Position numbers and translations under genes: made by a program. A DNA stretch of 64,000 nt from the NCBI RefSeq assembly GCF_009720675.1, contig NZ_WNJO01000005.1, positions 1-64,000 on the forward strand. Reading direction: 5' to 3'. The notes below the pieces were generated by a model, which was not told the origin of the DNA, did no database searches, and was given only the letters and a program-made list of their open reading frames with translations. Source of the stretch: Secundilactobacillus folii (lineage in GTDB: Bacteria; Bacillota; Bacilli; Lactobacillales; Lactobacillaceae). Positions 3,115 to 24,053 of the stretch are shown piece after piece; the first letter of the stretch is position 1, and each line of letters opens with the position of its first letter.

Positions 3115-4470
3115 CTAGAGACGGTATTTTTTAAATGCAGCGTAGTCCTTATCGACTTGATCAGCATAGGCGGTGGTCCAGTTCTGAATGGCTTTACCAA
3201 ACGATTCAGAATGGCCAAGGTAACCTAAAATAACACCGGCAGTAGGGCTTTGTGCATGACTGATACCTAGGACCCACGCACAGGTATTAGCGTAAGCTTC
3301 GAACTGATCCCAATCCAAGTCAGCTAGTTCAACTGAAGCTTTCATATCACGAAATTGGCGTACGTAATAGCTGCGGTCAGTGGTCGCAAAGTAGCCGAGA
3401 AAGGGGTCAGACGCCGACTGCATGATCTTTTGACAATCAACGATTCGTTTGCCTTCATTTTTTTCAAATTGAGCGTTGTGGACGTCAAGTTTATCGGCTA
3501 ATTGACGGTGGGGCAGCGCTTCTTTGATCTGCAAAACTAGGTGTGAGCCGTCAGTGCTAGTCAGCAGTACCAAATAACAGCGGGAACCAAAGCTGCCGAC
3601 ACCGACACTGTGGCGAACGATGTCGGTGACGCTGAATTGCGATAGCATCAGATTCACGTCGGTTGCCAAGGTTCGGCGGTAATCTTCCAAATATTCGCTG
3701 ATCCCTTCAGTGACATTATCTTCAACGTGACGGGTGCGCGGGGCGTTTTCTTTAAATGCAGTCTGGCCCTTACTATCAGTAACCGTAAACTTTCGAACGA
3801 CCTGTTCTGAGTCTCTTTTACCAGCCTTATTAAGAAACTTCTTTAGCTTTTCAGTATGCAGTTCCTGACTCGGCATCGAATTTAGCACCGTTTCCACGTT
3901 GTTCACCGGATAAAAACGGTTCAACGCAGAACGTTCAAACATGTTTCGCAGACTTTGCTGGTAGGTTTGACCAAGCTTTTGAATCAGCTCAGCTAATTGT
4001 GTTTCGTTAAAGTCGTGCTCGCGACCGGCCAACAACGCACTGACCGCTAGCCGTTTGATGTCCCATTCAAAGGGGTTAATGCCGGCTTCATCAAAATCGT
4101 TTAAATCAAATAAGAGGTGGCGCTCAGGTGACCCGAAGAAACCAAAATTACCAATGTGCGCATCACCACAGATCACCGCGTGAATTGGTGAATTGGCTTG
4201 ATGGGCAAGGTCATATTCCATTAATTCGGCGGTGCCACGATAAAAGGTAAAACTGGACTGGCTCATACGCTGAGTCCGTTCGGCTAATAGTTCCGGAATC
4301 AGGATGGCACGGACCTGATCCATTAGGCGATTAGGATCCCGGTCTGTGGGCTTAAACTGGCCTAATTTCTTGAACGAAAAGGCATCTCGCAACTGTTTGC
4401 CAATTTTACGCTGCTGTTTCAGTGACTCAGTCACAATTAACTGACTGAAATTAAATGGTTTAACACTCAT
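3115..4470 (-). CDS. DUF2252 family protein
   Basis: The protein has 451 residues and belongs to the uncharacterised DUF2252 family, which looks distantly kinase-like. Recognisable segments are RTQRMSQSSFTFYRGTAELM, the strongly conserved CGDAHIGNFGFFGSPE, and DLNDFDEAGINPFEWDIKRL, followed by a late IQNWTTAYADQVDKDY. The HxxN and DxND patterns resemble the catalytic and metal-binding loops of aminoglycoside phosphotransferase-like kinases (inference). GGGGGAG lies 9 nt before ATG 4470. It stands alone, divergent from pgcA, with its own terminator. Substrate and role are unknown. Confidence 0.8.
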   Translation of the reverse strand: MSVKPFNFSQLIVTESLKQQRKIGKQLRDAFSFKKLGQFKPTDRDPNRLMDQVRAILIPELLAERTQRMSQSSFTFYRGTAELMEYDLAHQANSPIHAVICGDAHIGNFGFFGSPERHLLFDLNDFDEAGINPFEWDIKRLAVSALLAGREHDFNETQLAELIQKLGQTYQQSLRNMFERSALNRFYPVNNVETVLNSMPSQELHTEKLKKFLNKAGKRDSEQVVRKFTVTDSKGQTAFKENAPRTRHVEDNVTEGISEYLEDYRRTLATDVNLMLSQFSVTDIVRHSVGVGSFGSRCYLVLLTSTDGSHLVLQIKEALPHRQLADKLDVHNAQFEKNEGKRIVDCQKIMQSASDPFLGYFATTDRSYYVRQFRDMKASVELADLDWDQFEAYANTCAWVLGISHAQSPTAGVILGYLGHSESFGKAIQNWTTAYADQVDKDYAAFKKYRL

Positions 4471-4640
4471 GCTGTTAACTCCCCCTTAGTCCTTAAATCA
4501 TTGCCCTTAGTTTACCACTTGTTGGAACTCCGAGCTCTGAGCAGGTGGTGGCCGAAGCTATGCTTGTGCATTTTATAAATTGAAAATGCAGTCTAGATGG
4601 AAAAATGCTAAAATGAAAAAGGCAAAGATTGCGAGAGATA

Positions 4641-6744: not shown

Positions 6745-6764
6745 TAGTAAAATTTTTAGTAAAA
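6745..6764 (+). promoter_or_regulatory. Candidate GalR operator at the galK transcription start
   Basis: TAGTAAAATTTTTAGTAAAA begins about where transcription should start. Its first 14 bases are identical to the pgcA promoter site. A repressor here would block initiation or early elongation. Confidence 0.55.
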
Positions 6765-6781
6765 ATAACGGAGGCCTGATC

Positions 6782-7954
6782 ATGGATTATCAAAGTTTAA
6801 AGGATGAATTTAACACGGCATTTGGCTATCAAGGTGAGCGCGTATACTTTTCACCTGGCCGGATCAATTTAATTGGTGAGCATACTGATTATAACGGCGG
6901 CAACGTGTTCCCATGTGCCATCAGTATGGGAACCTATGGTGTTTACGCACCGCGCGATGATAACCAAGTTCGTGTCTATTCCGCAAACTTACCAGACGCC
7001 GGCATCATCACCTATCAAATCGACCAACTGGCGTTTGATAAGAATGATAGCTGGGTCAAGTTCCCTAAGGGTGTGATGTACGAAATGGCTAAGCAGGGCA
7101 AGACCATTGATCACGGGTTCGATTTGTTTGTTCACGGTGATCTGCCAGACGCTTCAGGTCTCTCATCATCCGCTTCAATCGAATTACTGATTGGAAACAT
7201 CTTAAACCAAGAGTTTAACTGGGGCGTTGACCAGTTGACGCTGGTTAAAAATGGTCAAGCAGTTGAAAACGACTACCTCGGTCTAAACACTGGTATCATG
7301 GACCAGTTCGCAATCGGCATGGGCAAGAAAGACCAAGCTGTTTTGCTGGATACTAACACCTTAAAGTACGAGTACGTACCCGTTGAATTAGGCGATAACG
7401 TGGTGGTTATCATGAACACCAACAAGCGTCGTGAGTTAACTGATTCGAAGTACAACGAGCGCCGTGCTGAGTGTGAAAAAGCCTTAGCCCTGATTCAAAA
7501 GGGTGGCGTTGACGTCAAAACGTTGGGCGACCTGTCACAAGAGGAATTCGATAAGGACGCCTACCTCATCAACGATGATACGTTGATCAAGCGTGCCCGT
7601 CATGCCGTCATTGAAAATCAACGGACATTGCGTGCCAAGAAAGCTTTGACTGAGGGCCAACTAGATGAATTTGGCAAACTCGTCAACGCTTCTCATGTCT
7701 CACTTCACTACGATTATGAAGTCACTGGTAAGGAGCTGGATACCTTAGCTGAAACCGCTTGGAAACAACCCGGTGTGCTGGGTGCCCGGATGACCGGTGC
7801 CGGCTTCGGTGGCTGTGCGATCGCAATCGTTAACAAGGCTAACGTTGATGACTTCATCAAAAACGTCGGTGATGTTTATAAGAAGGAGATCGGTTATGCC
7901 GCAAGCTTCTACGTTGCCAACATTGCCGATGGTCCCCGTCAGATTACAGCTTAA
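6782..7954 (+). CDS. galK: Galactokinase
   Basis: This 390-residue GHMP-family kinase phosphorylates galactose to galactose-1-phosphate with ATP, the first step of the Leloir pathway. It shows the galactokinase signature PGRINLIGEHTDYNGG (residues 25-40), the ATP-binding loop DLPDASGLSSSASIELL near residue 121, and the C-terminal GARMTGAGFGGCAI. The longer frame to 6635 is rejected because GGAGG at 6770-6774 sits 7 nt before ATG 6782. It is the first gene of galKETR, followed by galE after 89 bp. Control probably combines GalR and CcpA, as judged from the sites upstream. Confidence 0.95.
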   Translation: MDYQSLKDEFNTAFGYQGERVYFSPGRINLIGEHTDYNGGNVFPCAISMGTYGVYAPRDDNQVRVYSANLPDAGIITYQIDQLAFDKNDSWVKFPKGVMYEMAKQGKTIDHGFDLFVHGDLPDASGLSSSASIELLIGNILNQEFNWGVDQLTLVKNGQAVENDYLGLNTGIMDQFAIGMGKKDQAVLLDTNTLKYEYVPVELGDNVVVIMNTNKRRELTDSKYNERRAECEKALALIQKGGVDVKTLGDLSQEEFDKDAYLINDDTLIKRARHAVIENQRTLRAKKALTEGQLDEFGKLVNASHVSLHYDYEVTGKELDTLAETAWKQPGVLGARMTGAGFGGCAIAIVNKANVDDFIKNVGDVYKKEIGYAASFYVANIADGPRQITA

Positions 7955-9049: not shown

Positions 9050-10513
9050 ATGGCAGAGACGGTAAATACATTTGTGGACGCGATTATTGCTAGCGGAACG
9101 TATCAACCACTGGACCGAATTTACGTTACCAACCGAGTCCTTGGGCTAGTGGGTGATGATCCAGCCGTAGCTGCCAAAAGTGACGACTTGCTAGACGTGA
9201 TCGACGCACTGCTGGAAACCGCTATCAAGAACGGCAAAATTGAAGATGGCCAGTCTGACCGCGACATCTTGGAAGCTGAACTAACCGATTTGTTGACGCC
9301 AACGCCTGCACAAGTCAATCAGCACTTCTGGAACGAATATCAGAAAACACCTGAAGCAGCGACGGATTACTTCTATCAATTAAGCCGTAAAAATGATTAC
9401 ATTAAGACCCGTTCAATTGCCAAGAACATCGTCTTTAATACCCCGACCGATTATGGTGACCTAGAGATCACCATTAACCTGTCGAAACCGGAAAAAGATC
9501 CTAAGGCAATTGCAGCGGCTCGCAACCAGAAATCTAATACCTACCCACTGAGTCAGTTGGCCATTGAAAACGAGGGTTACCGTGGTCGCTTAGGTTACCC
9601 GGCTCGGACCAATCACCGGGTGATCCGGATGTCGTTAGGTGGTGAACCATGGGGATTCCAGTACTCACCGTACGCTTATTTCAGTGAGCACGCGATCTTC
9701 TTGCTGCAAGCCCACCGACCAATGGTCATCAACCAGCACACCTTTAGTAATCTGCTAGAAATTGTGCGGACGTTTCCGCACTACTTCGTCGGCAGTAACG
9801 CTGACTTACCAATCGTTGGTGGTTCAATGCTGTCGCAGGACCACTATCAAGGCGGTCGCCACAACTTTCCGATGATGAAGGCGCCGATTGACCGAAAGAT
9901 CAATCTGCCAGGTTTCGATGATGTTGATGCTGGTATTGTGAAGTGGCCAATGTCGACCATTCGCTTGTCAGGTGACACGCCAGAATCATTGATCAACGCG
10001 GCAACGGCGATTGCTGACAGCTGGCAACACTACGATGATGAGGCAGTGGATGTTCGAGCATATACCGATGGTGAACGTCACCACACGGTCACGCCGATTG
10101 CCTACCGCCACGGTGAGAAATTCGTCTTGGATATTGTTTTGCGGGATAATCAAACTTCCGATAAGTATCCAGATGGTATTTTCCATCCACATCAGGATGT
10201 TCAACACATTAAAAAGGAAAACATTGGCTTGATTGAAGTCATGGGTCGAGCCATTTTACCAGCTCGTTTGAAGGACGAGATGCAAGAAGTTAAGCATTAC
10301 GTTCTTGGTGAACCAAACCAAATGAAGGATTACCACAAAGCTTGGGCTGATCAATTGAAGGCTGACAATCAATTGACCACCGATAACGCGGATGGCATCA
10401 TTGATCAAGCCATTGGTGAAGTGTTCAATCGGGTGCTTCAGGATGCTGGGGTATTTAAACGGACACCGGAAGGCCAAGCTGCATTTGACCGGTTCATCGC
10501 TCAATTAAGCTAA
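9050..10513 (+). CDS. galT: UDP-glucose--hexose-1-phosphate uridylyltransferase (class II)
   Basis: The protein has 487 residues, the size of the Firmicute-type GalT (family 2), which is longer than the enterobacterial enzyme. It transfers UMP from UDP-glucose to galactose-1-phosphate. The best-conserved stretch is GGSMLSQDHYQGGRHNFPM near residue 262, which carries the active-site histidines of this family, preceded by FSNLLEIVRTFPHYFVGSNA. ATG 9050 begins one base after the galE stop, with GGGGTG upstream. The longer in-frame extension into galE is not needed. It sits between galE and galR, as in many lactobacilli. Confidence 0.93.
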   Translation: MAETVNTFVDAIIASGTYQPLDRIYVTNRVLGLVGDDPAVAAKSDDLLDVIDALLETAIKNGKIEDGQSDRDILEAELTDLLTPTPAQVNQHFWNEYQKTPEAATDYFYQLSRKNDYIKTRSIAKNIVFNTPTDYGDLEITINLSKPEKDPKAIAAARNQKSNTYPLSQLAIENEGYRGRLGYPARTNHRVIRMSLGGEPWGFQYSPYAYFSEHAIFLLQAHRPMVINQHTFSNLLEIVRTFPHYFVGSNADLPIVGGSMLSQDHYQGGRHNFPMMKAPIDRKINLPGFDDVDAGIVKWPMSTIRLSGDTPESLINAATAIADSWQHYDDEAVDVRAYTDGERHHTVTPIAYRHGEKFVLDIVLRDNQTSDKYPDGIFHPHQDVQHIKKENIGLIEVMGRAILPARLKDEMQEVKHYVLGEPNQMKDYHKAWADQLKADNQLTTDNADGIIDQAIGEVFNRVLQDAGVFKRTPEGQAAFDRFIAQLS

Positions 10514-11542
<1,029 letters not shown>

Positions 11543-11546
11543 ATAG

Positions 11547-11590
11547 CAACTAAAAAGGGATTCCTCTATTCAGGAATCCCTTTTTAGTTG
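11547..11590. terminator. Long palindromic terminator after galR
   Basis: CAACTAAAAAGGGATTCC (11547-11564) is perfectly complementary to the sequence at 11573-11590, with an 8-nt loop. The A and T runs inside the stem make it work in both directions. Confidence 0.9.
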
Positions 11591-11926
11591 CCCAACGGTC
11601 GGAATCTAATCATTGATTCTAAAATGCAGCTTCTTAAAGTCACGTTCTGTCGGGACAGATTAGGACACCCAATCGACAAGCTTAGTGAAAAAAATGCAAA
11701 CAATTCACACGTATGTTAAATTAAAAATCCCACTAAATCTTGTAATTTTAGTAATTAAGTTAAAATATATTTTAAATATTTAAAAAATAGTGATTTATTT
11801 TTAAAAAAGTAAACAAAATTCAATGAAATGCGGTATAATCAATGTGAACTTAAAAACAAGAAGCAAACAATTAAGTTAATGGATATCAGACTAAGATTCA
11901 GGGCTGCCTGAAAGGAGACTGTCATT
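11591..11926 (+). promoter_or_regulatory. AT-rich control region of the LDH/MDH-like gene
   Basis: This 336-bp gene-free stretch becomes very AT-rich from about 11700. AAATATTTAAAAAAT (11774-11788), followed by AGTG, also occurs in the maeE promoter at 14875-14889, so the citrate regulator may act here. A -10 box TATAAT lies at 11834-11839 with no good -35 box, consistent with an activator-dependent promoter. The first 100 bp show nothing recognisable. Confidence 0.45.
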
Positions 11927-12856
11927 ATGATTAAAAAACACCGTAAAGTTTTGTTGGTTGGCGATGGCGCCGTTGGTTCATCATTTGCATTTTCACTGCT
12001 TCAAAACTGTACCATCGATGAATTGGTGATCGTTGACATCCAAAAAGAACACGCTGAAGGTGATAGTCTTGACCTTGAGGACCTGACACCCATGATGATG
12101 CCAGCTCAGATTCGAAGTGGTGAATACGCTGATGCTGCCGATGCTGATATCGTGGTCATCACAGCTGGTGTACCCCGTAAACCTGGCGAGACCCGTCTCG
12201 ATTTAGTTAAGAAAAATACCAAGATTTTGGAATCAATTGTGACGCCAGTCGTTAATAGTGGTTTTAGCGGTTGCTTTGTCGTTTCAGCGAACCCGGTTGA
12301 TATTTTGACGGCCTTAACGCAGCACATTTCTGGGTTTCCTAAGAACCGGGTGATCGGTACCGGTACTTCGTTGGATAGTGCCCGCCTGCAAGTTGCTTTA
12401 AGCAAGGAGCTTGATGTCAGCACCAGTGATGTCGATGCCTACATTTTAGGTGAACACGGTGACAGTTCCTTTGCCGCTTATAATGAAGCGACGGTCAACG
12501 GCATGCCGCTGCTTAGCTTACCAAATGTTGACTCAGTTCGCCTGGCGATGATTGAAGATGACGTTCGCAAGAAGGGCGGACAGATCATTAGCCGTAAGGG
12601 AGCTACTTTCTACGGTGTTGCAGTAAGCCTTATGAAAATCTGTCGAGCTATTTTAATGGATGAAAATCTGGTAATGCCGGTTTCAGCACCACTTGATGGT
12701 CAGTATGGCTTAAACGATGTTTACATTGGCACCCCAGCAGTCATTAACGCTAGTGGTATCCGCCAGGTGATCGAAGTTAGCTTAACTGACGAAGAAACCA
12801 AGAAGATGCATCAATCTGCTGAAAAAATGAACGATATTTTACTGGCATCAGAATAG
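11927..12856 (+). CDS. L-lactate/malate dehydrogenase family enzyme with Arg at the specificity position
   Basis: This 309-residue NAD-dependent 2-hydroxyacid dehydrogenase shows the Rossmann VGDGAVGSSF (residues 11-20), the substrate loop ITAGVPRKPGETRLDL, substrate-binding Arg153 in TSLDSARLQ, and proton-relay His177 in GEHGDSSF. True L-LDHs usually have Gln where this protein has Arg84 (the Q102 position of the Bacillus enzyme). Arg there is the hallmark of malate dehydrogenases and converts LDH to MDH in classic mutagenesis. The rest of the loop is LDH-like. With the citrate cluster close by, oxaloacetate reduction is plausible, but lactate or another 2-oxoacid substrate remains possible. 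Confidence 0.8.
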   Translation: MIKKHRKVLLVGDGAVGSSFAFSLLQNCTIDELVIVDIQKEHAEGDSLDLEDLTPMMMPAQIRSGEYADAADADIVVITAGVPRKPGETRLDLVKKNTKILESIVTPVVNSGFSGCFVVSANPVDILTALTQHISGFPKNRVIGTGTSLDSARLQVALSKELDVSTSDVDAYILGEHGDSSFAAYNEATVNGMPLLSLPNVDSVRLAMIEDDVRKKGGQIISRKGATFYGVAVSLMKICRAILMDENLVMPVSAPLDGQYGLNDVYIGTPAVINASGIRQVIEVSLTDEETKKMHQSAEKMNDILLASE

Positions 12857-17197: not shown

Positions 17198-17480
17198 GGA
17201 CACAGCCGTTGCCGGTACCTTGGAATCATCTGATATTCAAATCATGATTTCAAAGGCCACTGACGGGATTCAAATTGAACTGAAATCCGACGTTGAAAAA
17301 CAGTTTGGCGATCAGATTCGTCACGTGATTACAGCCACGCTCAATGCATTAGGTGTGCAAGCAGCAAAGGTGAAAGCAGTCGATAAGGGCGCACTTGATT
17401 GCGTCATTAAGGCTCGCACGATTGCTGCAGCTCAGCGTGCCAGTGAAACCACTGCGACACCTGCATGGGAGGTACTATAA
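17187..17480 (+). CDS. citD: Citrate lyase acyl carrier subunit (gamma)
   Basis: This 97-residue acyl carrier protein of citrate lyase carries [13 protein letters not shown] at the N-terminus, where Ser14 is the attachment site for the 2'-(5''-phosphoribosyl)-3'-dephospho-CoA prosthetic group. The length is typical of the family. ATG 17187 has AAAGGA upstream and is preferred to TTG 17184. It begins inside the end of citC, and its stop codon overlaps the citE start (TAATG), so the subunits are translationally coupled. Confidence 0.92.
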
Positions 17481-18394
17481 TGGCTGATAACGAAGAACGC
17501 TTACGCCGAACAATGATGTTTGTTCCCGGCAATAACCCTGCAATGGTAAAGGATGCCGGCATCTATGGTGCTGATTCCATCATGTTTGACTTGGAAGATT
17601 CCGTTTCGATGGCTGAAAAAGACGCCGCCCGGATCTTAGTCTATGAAGCCCTTCAGACACAGGACTACGGGGATGCGGAGCTAGTCGTTCGGGTTAATGG
17701 TCAGGATACCCAATACTACGCCAACGATGTTAAAGCAATGGTGAAAGCAGGCATTGATGTTATTCGGCTGCCAAAGGCTGAATCAGCTGACATGGTTAAG
17801 CAGCTTGAAGCTGATATTTTAGCGGCTGAAAAAGAATTTGGCCGTCAAGAAGGTTCCACTCACTTAATGGCTGCGATTGAAAGTGCTAAAGGGGTGTTAA
17901 ATGCCCCTCAAATCGCAGCTGCCTCAGACCGGATGATTGGGATCGCACTCTCGGCTGAAGATTACACAACTGATATGAAGACCCACCGTTATCCAGACGG
18001 TGTGGAATTGGAATTCGCCCGTAACATGGTTCTTCACGCGGCTCGTGCTGCCGGTGTGGCGGCCTTTGATACGGTCTTTACCAACATGGACGATACGGAA
18101 GGCTTCTACCGTGAAACTGAATACATCCACCAGCTTGGATTTGACGGTAAATCACTGGTTAATCCACGCCAGATCGCCATGGTCAATAAAGTGTATGAAC
18201 CAAGTAAAAAGGAAGTTGCGAACGCCAAGAATGTCATCAACGCAATCGAAGAAGCCCGTCTTAAAGGTTCTGGTGTGATTTCGATGAACGGTCAAATGGT
18301 TGACCGTCCAGTTGTGCTACGTGCGCAACGGGTGATGCGGCTGGCAAAGGCTTCTAACTTAGTTGATGAGGAGGGGAACTACCTTGAAAAATAA
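17480..18394 (+). CDS. citE: Citrate lyase subunit beta
   Basis: This 304-residue HpcH/HpaI-family TIM barrel is the citryl-ACP lyase that splits citryl-ACP to acetyl-ACP and oxaloacetate. It shows the N-terminal [17 protein letters not shown], the metal-site region [21 protein letters not shown], and [12 protein letters not shown] 17480 overlaps the citD stop, with GGGAGG upstream. Its end overlaps citF by 11 bp. All active-site segments appear intact. Confidence 0.93.
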
Positions 18395-19922
18395 TGTTGA
18401 TCGCGACTTACCAGAAGATGTGATGGCTGATTTAAATTACCAACCATTTAAGACGACCGAAATTGGTCACCCGGAGATCCAGCGAGTAGCACCAAAAGTT
18501 CACGTTTCAACTGGTGATGACAAAGTGGTCACTGACATCAAACAGGTGGTTAAAGATACCTTACAAGATGGCATGACAATTTCATTTCATCACCATTTCC
18601 GCAATGGCGACTTTGTTTTCAATAAAGTTATGCGCGAGATCATCGATGGCGGATACAAAGACCTAACCTTGGCTCCTTCTTCACTGACTGGTGTGATGAA
18701 TGACATGGTCATCGAAGCAATCAAAGCAGGTACCATTACTCACATCACGAGTTCTGGGATGCGTGGTTCACTTGGTGATTTTGTTTCCCATGGTGGGTTG
18801 AAGAACCCGGTGATTTTCCGTTCTCATGGTAACCGTGCCCGGGCAATCGAACACGGCGACATCAAGATCGATGTGGCTTTCTTGGGGGTGCCGAATGCTG
18901 ATGCACTAGGTAATGCTAACGGGATGGAAGGCGACGCCGTATTTGGCTCACTGGGTTACGCCTTAATGGACGCTCAGTACGCCAATAAAGTGGTGCTTTT
19001 AACGGATAATATTGTGAGCTATCCAAATACACCAGCTTCAATCAAGCAGACTCAAGTGGACTACGTCGTTAAGGTCGACAAAGTTGGTGATCCCGATAAG
19101 ATTGGCTCCGGTGCAACCCGGTTCACCAAGGACCCTAAGGAATTAAAAATTGCTTCGACAGTCAACGATGTGATCGTGAACTCACCCTATTTCAAGGATG
19201 GTTTCTCATTTCAGACCGGGTCTGGCGGTGCTGCGTTAGCGGTGACCCGTTACCTGCGTCAAGCGATGATCGATAATCACATCAAAGCATCGTTCGCACT
19301 GGGCGGTATCACTAAGCCAACGACGGACTTGTTAAATGAAGGCCTGGTCGACAAGGTCATGGACGTACAGGATTTTGACAAGGGTGCTGCCGAATCGATG
19401 CACACGAACAAGAACCAACAGGAAATTGATGCTTCATGGTACGCTGATCCCGATAATAAGGGTGCCATGGTCGATCAACTTGACGTGGTGATTCTAAGTG
19501 CATTAGAGATCGATACCAAGTTTAACGTGAATGTCATGTCGGGCTCTGATGGTGTGATTCGGGGCGCAATTGGTGGTCACCAAGACGCTGCAACCGCTAA
19601 GCTGACGATTATTTCAGCACCGTTGGTTCGTGGTCGGATTGCCACCGTTGTTCCCGATGTCACCACAATAGTGACACCTGGAGACTCCGTGGATGTCTTG
19701 GTTACCGAATATGGTATCGCAATCAATCCCAAGCGCAAGGATCTGCAAGAAGCACTTGGCAACTTGCCTGGAGTGCCAGTATACACGATCAGTGAACTGC
19801 AGCAGTTGGCGGAAAAGAAAGTTGGCCAACCCAAGCCACTTGAGTTCACTGACCGCACCGTGGCCATGATTGAGTACCGCGACGGGTCGATTATCGATAC
19901 GATTAAAGAAGTAAAGGATTAG
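18384..19922 (+). CDS. citF: Citrate lyase subunit alpha
   Basis: This 512-residue protein is the citrate:acetyl-ACP transferase of the lyase complex. It starts at TTG 18384 with AGGAGGGG upstream and overlaps citE. It contains [45 protein letters not shown] and the C-terminal [18 protein letters not shown], all characteristic of CitF. The length is full. It acts on the CitD-bound acetyl group and releases acetate while loading citrate. Confidence 0.93.
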
Positions 19923-19988
19923 TTTAATCAATTCAGTTTGCAGGGGTTCAAACAACACGCAACTTCATTTGACGAAAGGAGGGTGGTC

Positions 19989-20558
19989 ATGGCCTCAATT
20001 TTTTCTACTGGTGAGCCTCAGGTGATCAGTGATGTTTTAAACAATCGTGATCAGCGGGCGGCTTTGCAACGCCACTTGCTAGAATGGTCTCCTGGCGAAA
20101 CACTGATTGCAATTAAGCTCAACATTCCAGGGCCAATCAAGAACAATGCGCCAATTCGACAGCTTTTTGCCAGGGGCACAGCGCGTTTTTATAACCAGCT
20201 TAAAGCCCGAACTCACGACTTTTTGACCGCCGCTCAGTGGGATAAGCCGACTGGTAATGAGTTATTTATTACCACTCCGTTAGACGCAGTTACGGTTAAA
20301 AGAATGGCGGTTCAATTTGAAGACCATGATCATCTGGGTCGTTTATTTGATGTGGACGTGATGGATGCGAGCCATCCAAGAGCACTTTCACGAGCGGATT
20401 TTAAAATGCCGGTCCGTAAATGTTTGATTTGCAACCGAATTGCAAAGGATTGTGCCCGTTCACGGCGACATTCCGTAACTACTTTACAAACTCGAATCAG
20501 TGAAATTTATGCCGCTGAATTTAATGCCGGCCAAGGACGTGAACCATGGATGAATTAG
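19989..20558 (+). CDS. citX: Citrate lyase holo-ACP synthase (phosphoribosyl-dephospho-CoA transferase)
   Basis: This 189-residue enzyme transfers the prosthetic group precursor from its triphosphoribosyl form to the CitD serine. The signature IKLNIPGPIKNN lies near residue 43, followed by the conserved DHDHLGRLFDVDVM and the Cys-containing RKCLICNRIAKDCARSRRHS near the end. ATG 19989 has AAAGGAGGG upstream. A 66-bp gap separates it from citF, the largest in the operon, and it overlaps citG by 13 bp. Confidence 0.9.
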   Translation: MASIFSTGEPQVISDVLNNRDQRAALQRHLLEWSPGETLIAIKLNIPGPIKNNAPIRQLFARGTARFYNQLKARTHDFLTAAQWDKPTGNELFITTPLDAVTVKRMAVQFEDHDHLGRLFDVDVMDASHPRALSRADFKMPVRKCLICNRIAKDCARSRRHSVTTLQTRISEIYAAEFNAGQGREPWMN

Positions 20559-21394
20559 CGAAGAACGCCTTAGTTGGCGACGCCTTAAAAGCGTTACTGT
20601 ACGAGGTCAGTGTTAATCCGAAGCCAGGATTGGTCGATCCCGTGTCTTCCGGCCCGCATCCTGACATGGACGTCTTCACCTTTATCGACAGTACGGTTAG
20701 TTTGCGACAGTATTTTACTAGTTGTGTAGGGCAAGGAGCGGCTTTTCACGGCGATGATCTTAGACAACTGTTTGGTAGTATCCGGCCGATTGGAGTTCAG
20801 GCTGAACACGAGATGTTTGCGGCTACCAACGGAGTCAATACGCACAAGGGCGCCATCTTTTCACTCGGTATTTTAGTAACAGCTGAGGCTTATCGTTTGA
20901 ACCACCAACAACTAACTGTGACCAACGTGGTGCAGTTAATGTTGAGAGGGTTAACGGCAAGTGACTTTAAAAATCTTGATCGTCAACCAGCAGACTTGTT
21001 AACAGCTGGGGAACGCCAGTATTTAAGATATGGTACAAAGGGTATTCGCGGTGAAGCGGAAACTGGTTACCCGACGGTGATATCGGTAGGTTTACCCACT
21101 TTACGGGCTGCTAAGGGGAACCAAAATCAACGCCTGCTTGATACGTTAATGATGCTTGTTGGTCATTCTGTGGACACCAATTTGGTCAAACGAGCTGGTA
21201 ACGAGGATGTTGTCGAATGGGCTCACGTACAAGCAAAACGGTATTTTGATTTGGGCGGCAGCCAGACTGAAGACGGCATGGCCTTTCTAACCCAACTGAA
21301 TCAAACCTTCACTGACCGTAATCTGAGCCTTGGCGGGTCAGCTGATCTGTTGATCTTGACCATTTTTCTTGGGCTGCGTGAAGGCATTATTTAA
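20546..21394 (+). CDS. citG: Triphosphoribosyl-dephospho-CoA synthase
   Basis: This 282-residue enzyme makes 2'-(5''-triphosphoribosyl)-3'-dephospho-CoA, the citrate lyase prosthetic group precursor, from ATP and dephospho-CoA. It shows VSVNPKPGLVDPVSSGPHPD, TNGVNTHKGAIFSLG and the late GGSADLLILTIFL typical of the family. Separate citX and citG genes occur here rather than the fused form known in some bacteria. It is the last gene of the operon, followed by a strong terminator, and no citrate transporter gene follows. Confidence 0.92.
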   Translation: MDELAKNALVGDALKALLYEVSVNPKPGLVDPVSSGPHPDMDVFTFIDSTVSLRQYFTSCVGQGAAFHGDDLRQLFGSIRPIGVQAEHEMFAATNGVNTHKGAIFSLGILVTAEAYRLNHQQLTVTNVVQLMLRGLTASDFKNLDRQPADLLTAGERQYLRYGTKGIRGEAETGYPTVISVGLPTLRAAKGNQNQRLLDTLMMLVGHSVDTNLVKRAGNEDVVEWAHVQAKRYFDLGGSQTEDGMAFLTQLNQTFTDRNLSLGGSADLLILTIFLGLREGII

Positions 21395-21554: not shown

Positions 21555-23474
21555 TCACCAAATTTTTACTCGTTCGGCAGGCGCCTTGTACATGCCGTCG
21601 CCTTCGTGAATATCAAAAGTGTTGAAGAAATCATCTAAATTTTGGACTTGAACGTTGGCCCGTAATTTAGCAGGGGCATGCACGTCAATGGATAAGAGCA
21701 GCTGTTCGCGTTCTGGGGTGGCTTTTTGACGCCAAATCTTAGCCCAATTTAAGAAGAAGGCCTGTAAGTCAACGTCTGCTTCTCCTTTAGCCGCTTCAAG
21801 GGCACAGCTTAAGCCGCCAGCGTCTGCGATGTTTTCAGAAACGGTCAGTTTACCATTCACTGTCTGGCCGGCAAACGGAATGCCATCGAACTCTTTGACC
21901 ATGTTTTGAGCCAGCGCTTGGAAATGTTGGTTATCTTCTTTAGTCCACCAATTGTTTAAATTCCCATATTCGTCGAAGAGTGAACCGTTGTTGTCAAATG
22001 CATGGGAGATTTCGTGGGCAATCACCGCGCCGATGCCGCCAAAGTTTTGACTGGAAGACTGTTTGAGACTGTAAAACGGCGCCTGCAAAATCGCTGCTGG
22101 GAACACGATGATGTTGTGGAATGGGTGGAAGTAGGCATTGACTGTGGCAGCACTCATTTCCCAACGTGTCCGGTCGACCGGCTTATTCCAACGTGCAAAG
22201 TCATCTTCGCTGCGGATTCGGGAGAACGTCATAACGTTGCTGAGCACTGAACCCCCATGCGTGGCGTCAGTGACTTTGAAAAGACTATATAAGGCGTCGA
22301 TCTTGTCTGGATAACCGACTTGGATACCCAACTTATCAAGCTTTAAGATGGCCTTGTCGCGGGTTGCTTTACCGAGCCAAGTGTTGTTTGCGAGGCGCTT
22401 TTTGTAGACATTGACCATTTTAACGACCATGTCATGAACGTCTTTTTTAGCGGCCTCACCAAAGTATTTTCGACCGTAATAGTCGCCGACGACCTGGTCA
22501 AAAACGCCGGTGGCCAGATCGTAAGCGGCCTTTTCTTGACTGCGGGCTTCCTTTCTGCCACTCATGGCTCGGCCATAAATAGTACTGGTCTGCCGTTGTT
22601 CCTCAGTCAGGTAGCTTGATAGGCCCATCACGGTTTTGACCAGCATCCAAGACTTCATTAACTGGAAATGATCATCGGTCAGGAGGTCACTTAATGCATC
22701 AAAGTAAGCTGGTTCCGGACTAATGATGGTTTCAGGAGTCCCATGAACGAGCGTTGTAATTGCGGTCTTCAGGTCCAATTTATCGGTGCTGGCGGCAATT
22801 TGATCGAGGGTGCGAGGATTATACATCTTACTGTAATCAGCGCTCTCTTCGGCTGATTTAACGTGCGGTGCGATGAGTTGGTCAAATGCCGTGGCATTGT
22901 CGATAATGGCAGTAGCTTGGTCCTGATCATATCCAGCCTGCTTGAATAGCTCGGTCATCATGTCTTTGAAGATCGGCATCAACTGCGCAGCGGCCTTGTT
23001 GTCCTTTTCATAGTAGGTTTTATCCGGTAAGAAAAGCCGTGGGCCACTTGCAAATAAAGCATAAGTGGTGGAATGTTTCATGTCGGAATCGATATCAAAT
23101 GAGAAGGGGGTTGGGAGACCAGTTAAGATCCAGTCGGCAAGTTGCTCACTCAAATCCTGATAGCCATTCAGCTTCTCGATTCGTTCTAAGTATGGCTTAA
23201 GTGGCTGACTACCATCTTTTTCACGCTTATCAAAGTCACTGACTAAGGCGTAGAATTTTTTAAACTCTGCCATTTCAGCATTTTGGGGCTCAAGTTTGCC
23301 GTCTAGCAACTCTTTAAAGTCAGCCATTAAGGTTTTTTCGATGCCATCAGATAGGTCGGTAAACCCACCTGTAGTCGAGTGGTCACCGGGGATTTTGGCC
23401 GTTTTAAGCCATTCGCCATTGACGGCATCGTATAAATCAGTTTTGATCAAATCTTGATTAATTGTATCTGCCAT
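21555..23474 (-). CDS. pepO: M13-family metalloendopeptidase PepO
   Basis: This 639-residue zinc endopeptidase of the neprilysin family has the zinc motif HEISHAFDNNG near residue 485, the third zinc ligand in SENIADAGGL, and NAYFHPFHNIIVFPAAIL upstream of the active site. No signal peptide is seen, consistent with the intracellular PepO of lactic acid bacteria that cuts casein-derived oligopeptides. CGGAGG lies 8 nt before ATG 23474. It is a single gene whose 3' end faces citG across a shared terminator. Confidence 0.92.
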   Translation of the reverse strand: MADTINQDLIKTDLYDAVNGEWLKTAKIPGDHSTTGGFTDLSDGIEKTLMADFKELLDGKLEPQNAEMAEFKKFYALVSDFDKREKDGSQPLKPYLERIEKLNGYQDLSEQLADWILTGLPTPFSFDIDSDMKHSTTYALFASGPRLFLPDKTYYEKDNKAAAQLMPIFKDMMTELFKQAGYDQDQATAIIDNATAFDQLIAPHVKSAEESADYSKMYNPRTLDQIAASTDKLDLKTAITTLVHGTPETIISPEPAYFDALSDLLTDDHFQLMKSWMLVKTVMGLSSYLTEEQRQTSTIYGRAMSGRKEARSQEKAAYDLATGVFDQVVGDYYGRKYFGEAAKKDVHDMVVKMVNVYKKRLANNTWLGKATRDKAILKLDKLGIQVGYPDKIDALYSLFKVTDATHGGSVLSNVMTFSRIRSEDDFARWNKPVDRTRWEMSAATVNAYFHPFHNIIVFPAAILQAPFYSLKQSSSQNFGGIGAVIAHEISHAFDNNGSLFDEYGNLNNWWTKEDNQHFQALAQNMVKEFDGIPFAGQTVNGKLTVSENIADAGGLSCALEAAKGEADVDLQAFFLNWAKIWRQKATPEREQLLLSIDVHAPAKLRANVQVQNLDDFFNTFDIHEGDGMYKAPAERVKIW

Positions 23475-23579: not shown

Positions 23580-23624
23580 TTCAAAAAAACGCTGATTAGG
23601 TAGTATCAGCGCCTTTTTTTGAAT
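23580..23624. terminator. Terminator downstream of the repeat array
   Basis: CGCTGAT (23590-23596) and ATCAGCG (23605-23611) form the core stem, extended by TTCAAAAAAA and TTTTTTTGAA. On the minus strand it would end a transcript that starts upstream of the gene at 24052-24276 and reads through the repeats. Confidence 0.75.
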
Positions 23625-23682
23625 CTTAGAGTTGTTTTAATTTGGAGATTTTGGGAAGCGGTATTGTTGCTATTATATAGCT

Positions 23683-24053
23683 GAATCGGGCTACCCAAAG
23701 CAGAAACTTGCGTGTAAACAATCCTAGTCAGCCCACCTGGCTTTCTGCCTAGGCTCGCTTACACTCCAGTTTCTAAACGCTTTGGTTCGCACCTTGTTGA
23801 ATCGGGCTACCCAAAGCAAGGACTTGCACATAAGTCAACTTTGCCATAATTCACGGCCAAGCCCGCCGCAAATTCTGTCAAAGTCGCCTTATGCTCCAGT
23901 CCTTAAACGCTTTGGTTCGCACCTTGTTGAATCGGGCTACCCAAAGCAGAAACTTGCGTGTAAACAATCCTAGTCAAAAACCCAGGAAGCCCACCTGGCT
24001 TTCTGCCTAGGCTCGCTTACACTCCAGTTTCTAAACGCTTTGGTTCGCACCTT
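23683..24053. repeat. Tandem array of three structured repeats
   Basis: Three units lie head to tail at 23683-23795, 23799-23925 and 23929-24053, joined by GTT. Each starts with GAATCGGGCTACCCAAAGC and ends with AAACGCTTTGGTTCGCACC plus TT. CCAAAGC pairs with GCTTTGG. Inside, unit 1 pairs AGAAACT with AGTTTCT and GTGTAA with TTACAC. Unit 2 has AAGGACT with AGTCCTT and CATAAG with CTTATG, so both sides of the stems changed together. Unit 3 is nearly identical to unit 1 except for about 12 extra bases near the loop. The array ends in the stop codon of the minus-strand gene at 24052. Confidence 0.85.

Follow-up and report, generated by a model that had tools for sequence, protein, structure and literature searches.

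What is repeated three times at the end of a small Secundilactobacillus gene, with ends that are identical from unit to unit and inner stems that differ but stay paired? The window analysed here, a stretch of 64,000 nucleotides from Secundilactobacillus folii, contains such an array. The original prediction read it as three copies of a structured RNA in a 3' untranslated region (3' UTR), with a fold under selection either as RNA or as extruded DNA.

The three-unit array

A repeat search of the window gave three tandem direct repeats at 23682-24053, read as units on the minus strand, and the units of 113-127 bp with identical ends are thus present where they had been described. The features of the locus are given below, with bit scores from the covariance model R1, which has all three units among its own building units.

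24053-23929, minus strand: unit 1 (W1), 125 nt, interior type B, overlapping the stop codon of the gene for a 74-residue protein; 132.7 bits
23925-23799, minus strand: unit 2 (W2), 127 nt, interior type A, with the same ends as unit 1; 140.9 bits
23795-23683, minus strand: unit 3 (W3), 113 nt, equal to unit 1 less 12 nt in the apical part; 103.7 bits
23673-23682, minus strand: 3' extension beyond the last unit, AGCTATATAA; a similar stretch follows many other arrays of the host genome
24052-24276, minus strand: gene for the 74-residue protein, no Pfam match, stop codon TAA at 24054-24052; 69-74% identical in seven congeners without the array
23590-23611, either strand: terminator-like hairpin flanked by T runs, beyond W3 and downstream of the array; listed for the plus strand, the minus-strand reading being taken from the sequence
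21555-23474, minus strand: downstream gene pepO for a peptidase M13 (PepO-type), outside the element; anchor for the empty-site comparison

All three units have the same 22-nt 5' end, AAGGTGCGAACCAAAGCG, and the same 19-nt 3' end, GCTTTGGGTAGCCCGATTC; with up to three mismatches allowed, the end patterns found 3 matches, against shuffled-sequence means of 0.00 and 0.01. The arm changes described between the units are present and still paired, and on the minus strand each unit folds better than 200 shuffled sequences (z -4.9 for W1, -7.3 for W2 and -7.2 for W3), folding of the plus strand being weaker (z -3.0, -5.6 and -5.1, respectively). The loss of the apex that distinguishes W3 is seen again in sister species and on plasmids. 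Over 39 arrays of the host genome the 3' extension has the consensus RGCTATRTAA, with 43-84% agreement per position.

As the TAA occupies 24054-24052 and W1 begins at 24053, the unit and the stop codon overlap; since the array lies between this stop codon and the terminator-like hairpin, it falls inside the 3' UTR at this locus, and the coordinates agree with the original prediction on this point. Such a placement favours a host-serving structured RNA, in which the units would be kept for their action in the 3' UTR and tandem units would tune the dose, the suggested roles being an RNase III substrate, an exonuclease block, or a protein or sRNA sponge. For the evidence given in the following sections, we consider this explanation unlikely. 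Elsewhere in the window, at 17465-21394, lies a gene run that, from its translations, we take to resemble a citrate lyase cluster.

Copies and distribution of the family

A first wider pattern search of the 2.68-Mb host genome (G000) found five units on contig C55, two on C56 and two on C23, and these, with the three of the window, are the 12 units of model R1. With 150 candidates scored, at least 122 R1 matches were obtained in the host genome on the two strands together, which correspond, when the better strand is kept, to at least about 77 units, some of them partial, in about 40 places. R1 also matched 14 of 15 genus genomes, counting the host, and, in the family, 33 of 151 genomes from 15 of 40 genera; the complete 3.0-Mb genome G062 has at least 147 matches, again with 150 candidates scored, and copy number in some genomes is about a hundred. 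As R1 reached just 3 of 299 genomes in a class-wide sample, the host among them, a generalised model, R2, was built from 57 diverse units. With 12 candidates scored per genome, R2 matched 55 of the 295 genomes sampled from the order, spread over 26 of 75 genera and seven family labels; it also matched 3 of 398 genomes of a phylum sample, namely the host and two others of the same class. The one genome of the genus missed by R1 (G008) has 20 R2 matches, so that all 15 are positive when both models are used. The covariance-model search that the original prediction had named as its check gave further units in the host and across the order, with the pairing kept. No genome of the family label f3, which we guess to be the streptococci, is among the R2 matches listed for the order sample.

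Named genera with matches are Secundilactobacillus, Levilactobacillus, Lacticaseibacillus, Lapidilactobacillus and Companilactobacillus, with Pediococcus represented on plasmids; identical loci point to Secundilactobacillus kimchicus (G004) and to Levilactobacillus fuyuanensis / L. hammesii (G029/G066) as carriers. Units were found on 15 plasmid records of Pediococcus and Lacticaseibacillus, in 14 of which they are 81-85% identical to a G062 unit over most of its length. When stretches carrying a 17-base pattern were tested with R2, all 32 lactobacillar loci matched and none of the 29 others did; this test covered 61 of the 80 listed among at least 112 stretches, a match anywhere in the locus was counted, and R2 is not blind to these lactobacilli, having been built with units of several of the same genera. 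A genome of another order of Bacilli (G360, 2.5 Mb) has 12 R2 matches. Units at three of its loci (L232, L369 and L372) show the bulge and stems of the family but have the ends ACACCGTTTA, and those of L232 are in tandem.

Neither Rfam 15 at gathering cut-offs nor a comparison of the window units with plasmid and phage sequences gave a match; relaxing Rfam to E<=10 brought up mir-607 as the best hit, at 34.2 bits against a cut-off of 94, and nothing convincing. No description of the family was found in the literature searched, and an older one may exist. The suggestion of a repeat family is supported, with many further copies, lineage-specific presence and no Rfam 15 match. One candidate of the host genome, L007 (G000:C34), was rejected as a member, being an isolated pattern match in which the second end is absent.

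Fold of the unit and its strand

The unit is gene-free, about 110-130 nt long, and one of its strands forms a single long hairpin that consists, in order, of the closing stem, the free-sequence stem P2, a bulge, a stem P3, an internal loop and an apical stem. The bulge is one-sided, with the consensus GKTTA on the 5' side only; the internal loop occurs in coupled forms, GGAG with GCA or GGCG with ATA; and the apical stem is very variable in sequence and length. Units begin with AAGGTGCG or GAGTGYG and end with RGCCCGATTC or RRCACGTTTC, followed in Secundilactobacillus by the RGCTATRTAA of the 3' extension. Terminal inverted repeats are absent: AAGGTGCG/GAGTGCGG and CCCGATTC/CACGTTTC pair merely as a short closing stem inside the hairpin.

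Double-sided changes, present at 19 of 43 pairs in the first 12 units, extend to 36 of 38 pairs in the 57 diverse units, where 92.7% of cells are paired; shuffling lowers this share to 66.1%, and sliding the partner lowers it to 35-45%. That the fold is kept while the letters drift suggests continued recognition of the shape by some component of the cell. Among 70 of the 77 host-genome units, short or lowest-ranked ones being excluded, the pairs comprise 2637 Watson-Crick, 195 G.U and 17 A.C pairs and 85 other mismatches. A cruciform or chance decay would yield G.U and A.C equally, so that the large excess of G.U indicates that one particular strand folds. The G.U excess fits RNA and single-stranded DNA alike.

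The strand bias does not follow the orientation of the neighbouring gene. The G.U to A.C ratios are 242:22 (upstream gene codirectional) and 141:10 (upstream gene opposed) in Secundilactobacillus, and correspondingly 112:33 and 129:18 in G062. As G.U exceeds A.C in both orientations, the constraint on the fold belongs to the element and needs no host transcript of one orientation; alternatively, recent source copies may have passed the bias on. A host-serving RNA would account well for the strong strand-specific covariation, but its persistence in both gene orientations speaks against that view. The same pair counts bear on an ordinary double-stranded DNA MITE, whose inverted repeats would simply be inherited and whose paired changes would arise, unselected, by template switching or whole-unit exchange. 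From neither process would one expect so large an excess of G.U over A.C, or that 57 diverse units should keep a bulge on one side and internal-loop variants that are coupled. Together with the absence of terminal inverted repeats and with a target duplication that is not established, these features make such a MITE improbable.

Paired changes: selection or copying

Some observations do fit the copying of whole arms. In the host genome, outer arms of neighbouring units share more than those of units from different arrays (0.80 against 0.64), with a smaller gap in three other genomes (0.65/0.62, 0.75/0.63 and 0.80/0.76). Interior modules are exchanged whole, both arms together (L207:4550 against L214:9955), and two plasmid records carry, at one shared site, units that are 78% identical (94/121) within flanks identical at 117/118, both cases being in line with the unselected exchange expected of a MITE. 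Paired changes between neighbouring units can therefore be a module swap, and the argument for selection drawn from the three units of the window is insufficient.

Orthologous units of the sister species G003 and G011 are more informative. Two-sided exchanges of one Watson-Crick (WC) pair for another number 46 and one-sided WC-GU changes 28, with 6 WC-AC, 7 one-sided WC-mismatch, 4 two-sided WC-mismatch and 3 two-sided GU-WC changes; these totals cover 12 of 15 unit pairs, those of more than 60% identity, with flanks mostly 85-94% identical. Of these, 2 A.C and 4 one-sided WC-mismatch changes come from a single pair (L195:6528/L230:7868). Among the three pairs below 60% identity, two differ mainly by two-sided changes, and the third involves an apex-deleted unit with two one-sided losses of pairing. 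L206:10392 and L216:8560, 93% identical, provide a clear case, with two A-U/G-C exchanges that affect both arms; in L207:15855/L212:7368 the differences at paired positions are almost solely two-sided, as a MITE copied by template switching or unit exchange might also show. In-place changes at orthologous sites favour pairing, an outcome also expected of a host-serving RNA. Selection on the fold, as originally claimed, is proven by the family-wide data and not by the window array alone, since modules are swapped and copy number changes elsewhere in the family.

Position relative to genes

Positions were counted where a gene call flanked the array on each side (39 arrays in G000, 27 in G003, 23 in G011 and 63 in G062), G003 and G011 sharing orthologous loci and hence not being independent; gene calls followed the longest ORF and used no annotation, for which reason some G062 distances to the upstream gene seem overlong. 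Among Secundilactobacillus arrays whose upstream gene runs on their own strand, the 5' end is placed -6 to 10 nt from the stop codon of that gene in 24/27 (G000), 13/19 (G003) and 12/15 (G011) cases, as a host-serving RNA would have it, and the 3' end lies -6 to 25 nt from a convergent stop in 1/17, 1/13 and 1/11. In gaps between codirectional genes the strand of the upstream gene is favoured at 15:5, 9:3 and 9:5 (G000, G003 and G011). When TA is followed by a unit whose first letter is G or A, the stop codon is preserved.

G062 presents a different picture, with a same-strand stop abutted in 1/30, a convergent stop in 5/32 and a strand ratio of 19 to 21 in codirectional gaps. The upstream gene is on the opposite strand in 33/63 arrays, and a T run lies at most 10 nt upstream in 24/63 against 2/39 (G000), 5/27 (G003) and 4/23 (G011), so that these 24 G062 arrays may lie beyond termination. 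The motif CCTCC occurs in the 24 nt before the unit in 10/63 G062 arrays and may be the ribosome-binding site of an opposite-strand gene. What the genomes have in common is the gene boundary, where inserts harm least. A regulatory RNA of 3' UTRs, in the form originally proposed, is not supported, since over half of the G062 arrays have an opposite-strand upstream gene and the excess of G.U persists there too; nor was any single class of gene noticed beside the arrays, which also tells against a host-serving RNA. A replication-strand bias was sought in G062, where 64 arrays run against and 45 with the leading strand, which is not convincing; this count used 129 positions among the at least 147 matches, with origin and terminus placed from the GC skew of stretches.

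One locus of the host genome (L076, G000:C11:16700-27900) has, at 3980-4560 and 6748-7300 on the minus strand, a leader with a unit in its 5' half that we take to be T-box-like from the motif AAGGTGGCACCGCGG. The second unit of the locus immediately precedes a gene for a presumably TrpD-like protein, with a pair of glycosyltransferase-family-3 domains. Rfam at gathering cut-offs reported no T-box for this leader. Units in such a leader before such a gene would agree with a host-serving RNA. A similar arrangement of leader and unit was seen about 2.7 kb from this one.

Gain, loss and tandem number

The order usp / 74-residue gene / pepO is kept in seven congeners, and the array is absent in 7/7, their 74-residue gene having its own stop codon followed by a 3' UTR that lacks a unit there. 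In another genome of the genus (G012) a unit lies within the stop codon of pepO, TGG TA being followed directly by GAGTGTG; in the other 14 genomes, host included, pepO ends in TGG plus TAA, TGA or TAG and no unit is present there. An array absent from these seven congeners and a pepO unit seen in G012 only indicate two lineage-specific gains at stop codons of one locus, loss in all other genomes being a less simple reading. This variation in presence at given genes among congeners weighs against a host-serving RNA. By eye, one of the seven congeners (L137) has a diverged unit elsewhere in the same gap.

Between G003 and G011, 14 sites could be compared: ten have units in both species, three have a unit against a remnant and one has a unit in a single species (L203:14062, in G011 only, with a short palindrome at the G003 site). 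As most sites are shared, movement is slow, and a set of sites so largely common to sister species is also what a host-serving RNA would give. Closely similar plasmids differ by internal deletion, in the apex or in unit number, as where some carry two units and a remnant, others one unit and others a remnant alone. Plasmid sites were considered as clean empty sites and rejected, because element ends remain, which points to internal deletions or copy-number changes; no base-exact empty site was found at the sites compared. In a gap between genes for PTS IIC and IIB, plasmids of Pediococcus and L. paracasei hold units, and most of the unit is missing from the Lactiplantibacillus plantarum records NZ_CP018325.1, NZ_CP018330.1, NZ_CP028278.1 and NZ_CP140091.1; in NZ_CP018325.1, the record of the four that was aligned, the 3' end of the unit is still present.

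A scan for duplication of flanking sequence, over several hundred offsets per genome, gave no consistent match beyond shuffles; its largest excess (z 3.6, 9 against 2.7, in G062) was at an offset not seen elsewhere. TA is frequent before GAGTG and after RGC, and a fixed TA duplication would escape the scan. The family has the MITE trait of many short gene-free copies; it is not filed as a classical MITE because no target duplication, terminal inverted repeat or base-exact empty site was established.

Relation to known hairpin repeats

Small hairpin repeats are known from enterobacteria, neisseriae and pneumococci. Integron attC sites are recognised through the fold of one strand, and their free arm sequence, kept bulges and arrays resemble those of the units described here; unlike in integrons, no gene cassettes lie between the units, and no attC consensus boxes were noticed. 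To our knowledge, an order-wide family defined by its fold and not by its letters is, among small hairpin repeats, a new variant.

BOX, a family of short hairpin-forming repeats in Streptococcus pneumoniae and S. suis of the same order, is read by its authors as parasitic and has the arrangement boxA-boxB(n)-boxC with a variable tandem number of boxB, terminal inverted repeats and reported target duplications (PMC3049150). Slow transposition, change of length between strains, provision of a gene's stop codon (36 cases) and one BOX between T boxes before a trp operon are also described there and find parallels here, whereas in the present family whole units of about 120 nt are repeated and the ends are not inverted repeats, a separation that rests on the description of BOX (PMC3049150). 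ERIC sequences, which can sit at gene 3' ends and alter mRNA, share with the family a length of about 127 bp, one long stem-loop, an intergenic location and tens to hundreds of copies; they differ in lineage, in sequence and in having the terminal inverted repeats that are absent here (PMC2267715, PMC10969869). For ERIC and for small palindromic repeats, the consulted parts of these sources make no mention of order-wide strand-specific covariation such as that at the 36 of 38 pairs above (PMC2267715, PMC10969869). Efa-1 of Enterococcus faecalis is likewise a repeated structured intergenic family of the Lactobacillales, with a 163-nt model, but it forms an adjacent pair of stem-loops, as judged from its description (PMC2267715).

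A probable mobile hairpin element

We consider that the array probably represents three tandem copies of a non-autonomous mobile hairpin element that is recognised by its one-strand fold and moved in trans. Its dispersal, lineage-specific presence, strand-specific fold and changing tandem number are shown, and plasmid copies, interior exchange, apex loss and placement at gene boundaries were observed as well; the enzyme, the single-stranded substrate and the insertion chemistry are inferred. Slow movement counts against a mobile element, as do the missing classical MITE signs and mobiliser, a strand bias that recent source copies might have handed down, and the lack of a clear replication-strand bias, which transposition of single-stranded DNA might show. 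In the host lineage, the element would have inserted at the stop codon of the 74-residue gene and then have been duplicated in tandem. An enzyme of the host or of another element may recognise the folded single strand, either as single-stranded DNA or as an RNA copy, and move the unit; insertions would survive chiefly where a stop codon, terminator or ribosome-binding site still works, and at the same-strand stops of Secundilactobacillus the element itself supplies the stop codon. A unit transcribed in a 3' UTR may alter mRNA stability as a by-product, and regulation through 3' UTRs is possible.

No mobiliser was found: a search for PF01797 (Y1_Tnp) at E<=0.001 had 0 matches in the host genome, which argues against a RAYT/IS200 transposase as mobiliser there. 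A REP/REPIN-type element moved by a RAYT, an IS200/IS605-like Y1 transposase, would likewise be a gene-free, intergenic, strand-specific hairpin with many copies per genome; PF01797 was, however, found in 7 of the 15 genus genomes without correlation with element number, and together with its absence from the host this makes such an origin highly improbable. REPs also differ from these units in length and fold.

A broader proposal, which we put forward tentatively as a possibility, is that of an order-wide shape-coded mobile element, in which a trans-acting enzyme of the Lactobacillales would read the folded strand, its bulge and its loops, and insert the unit at gene ends. If so, it would be an element encoded by shape, with arm sequence free to drift, outside integrons and IS200/IS605, and with an undiscovered mobiliser. 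The drift with a kept fold across many genera is an unusually clean sign of single-strand recognition. The family occupies intergenic space in food and probiotic genera, where it edits gene ends by supplying stop codons and changing 3' UTRs, and because array length differs between related plasmids, the arrays could serve as typing markers. Another long tandem repeat, of about 135 bp, is present in both sister species, in L225 (G003:C35) at about 10200-12500 and in L198 (G011:C2).
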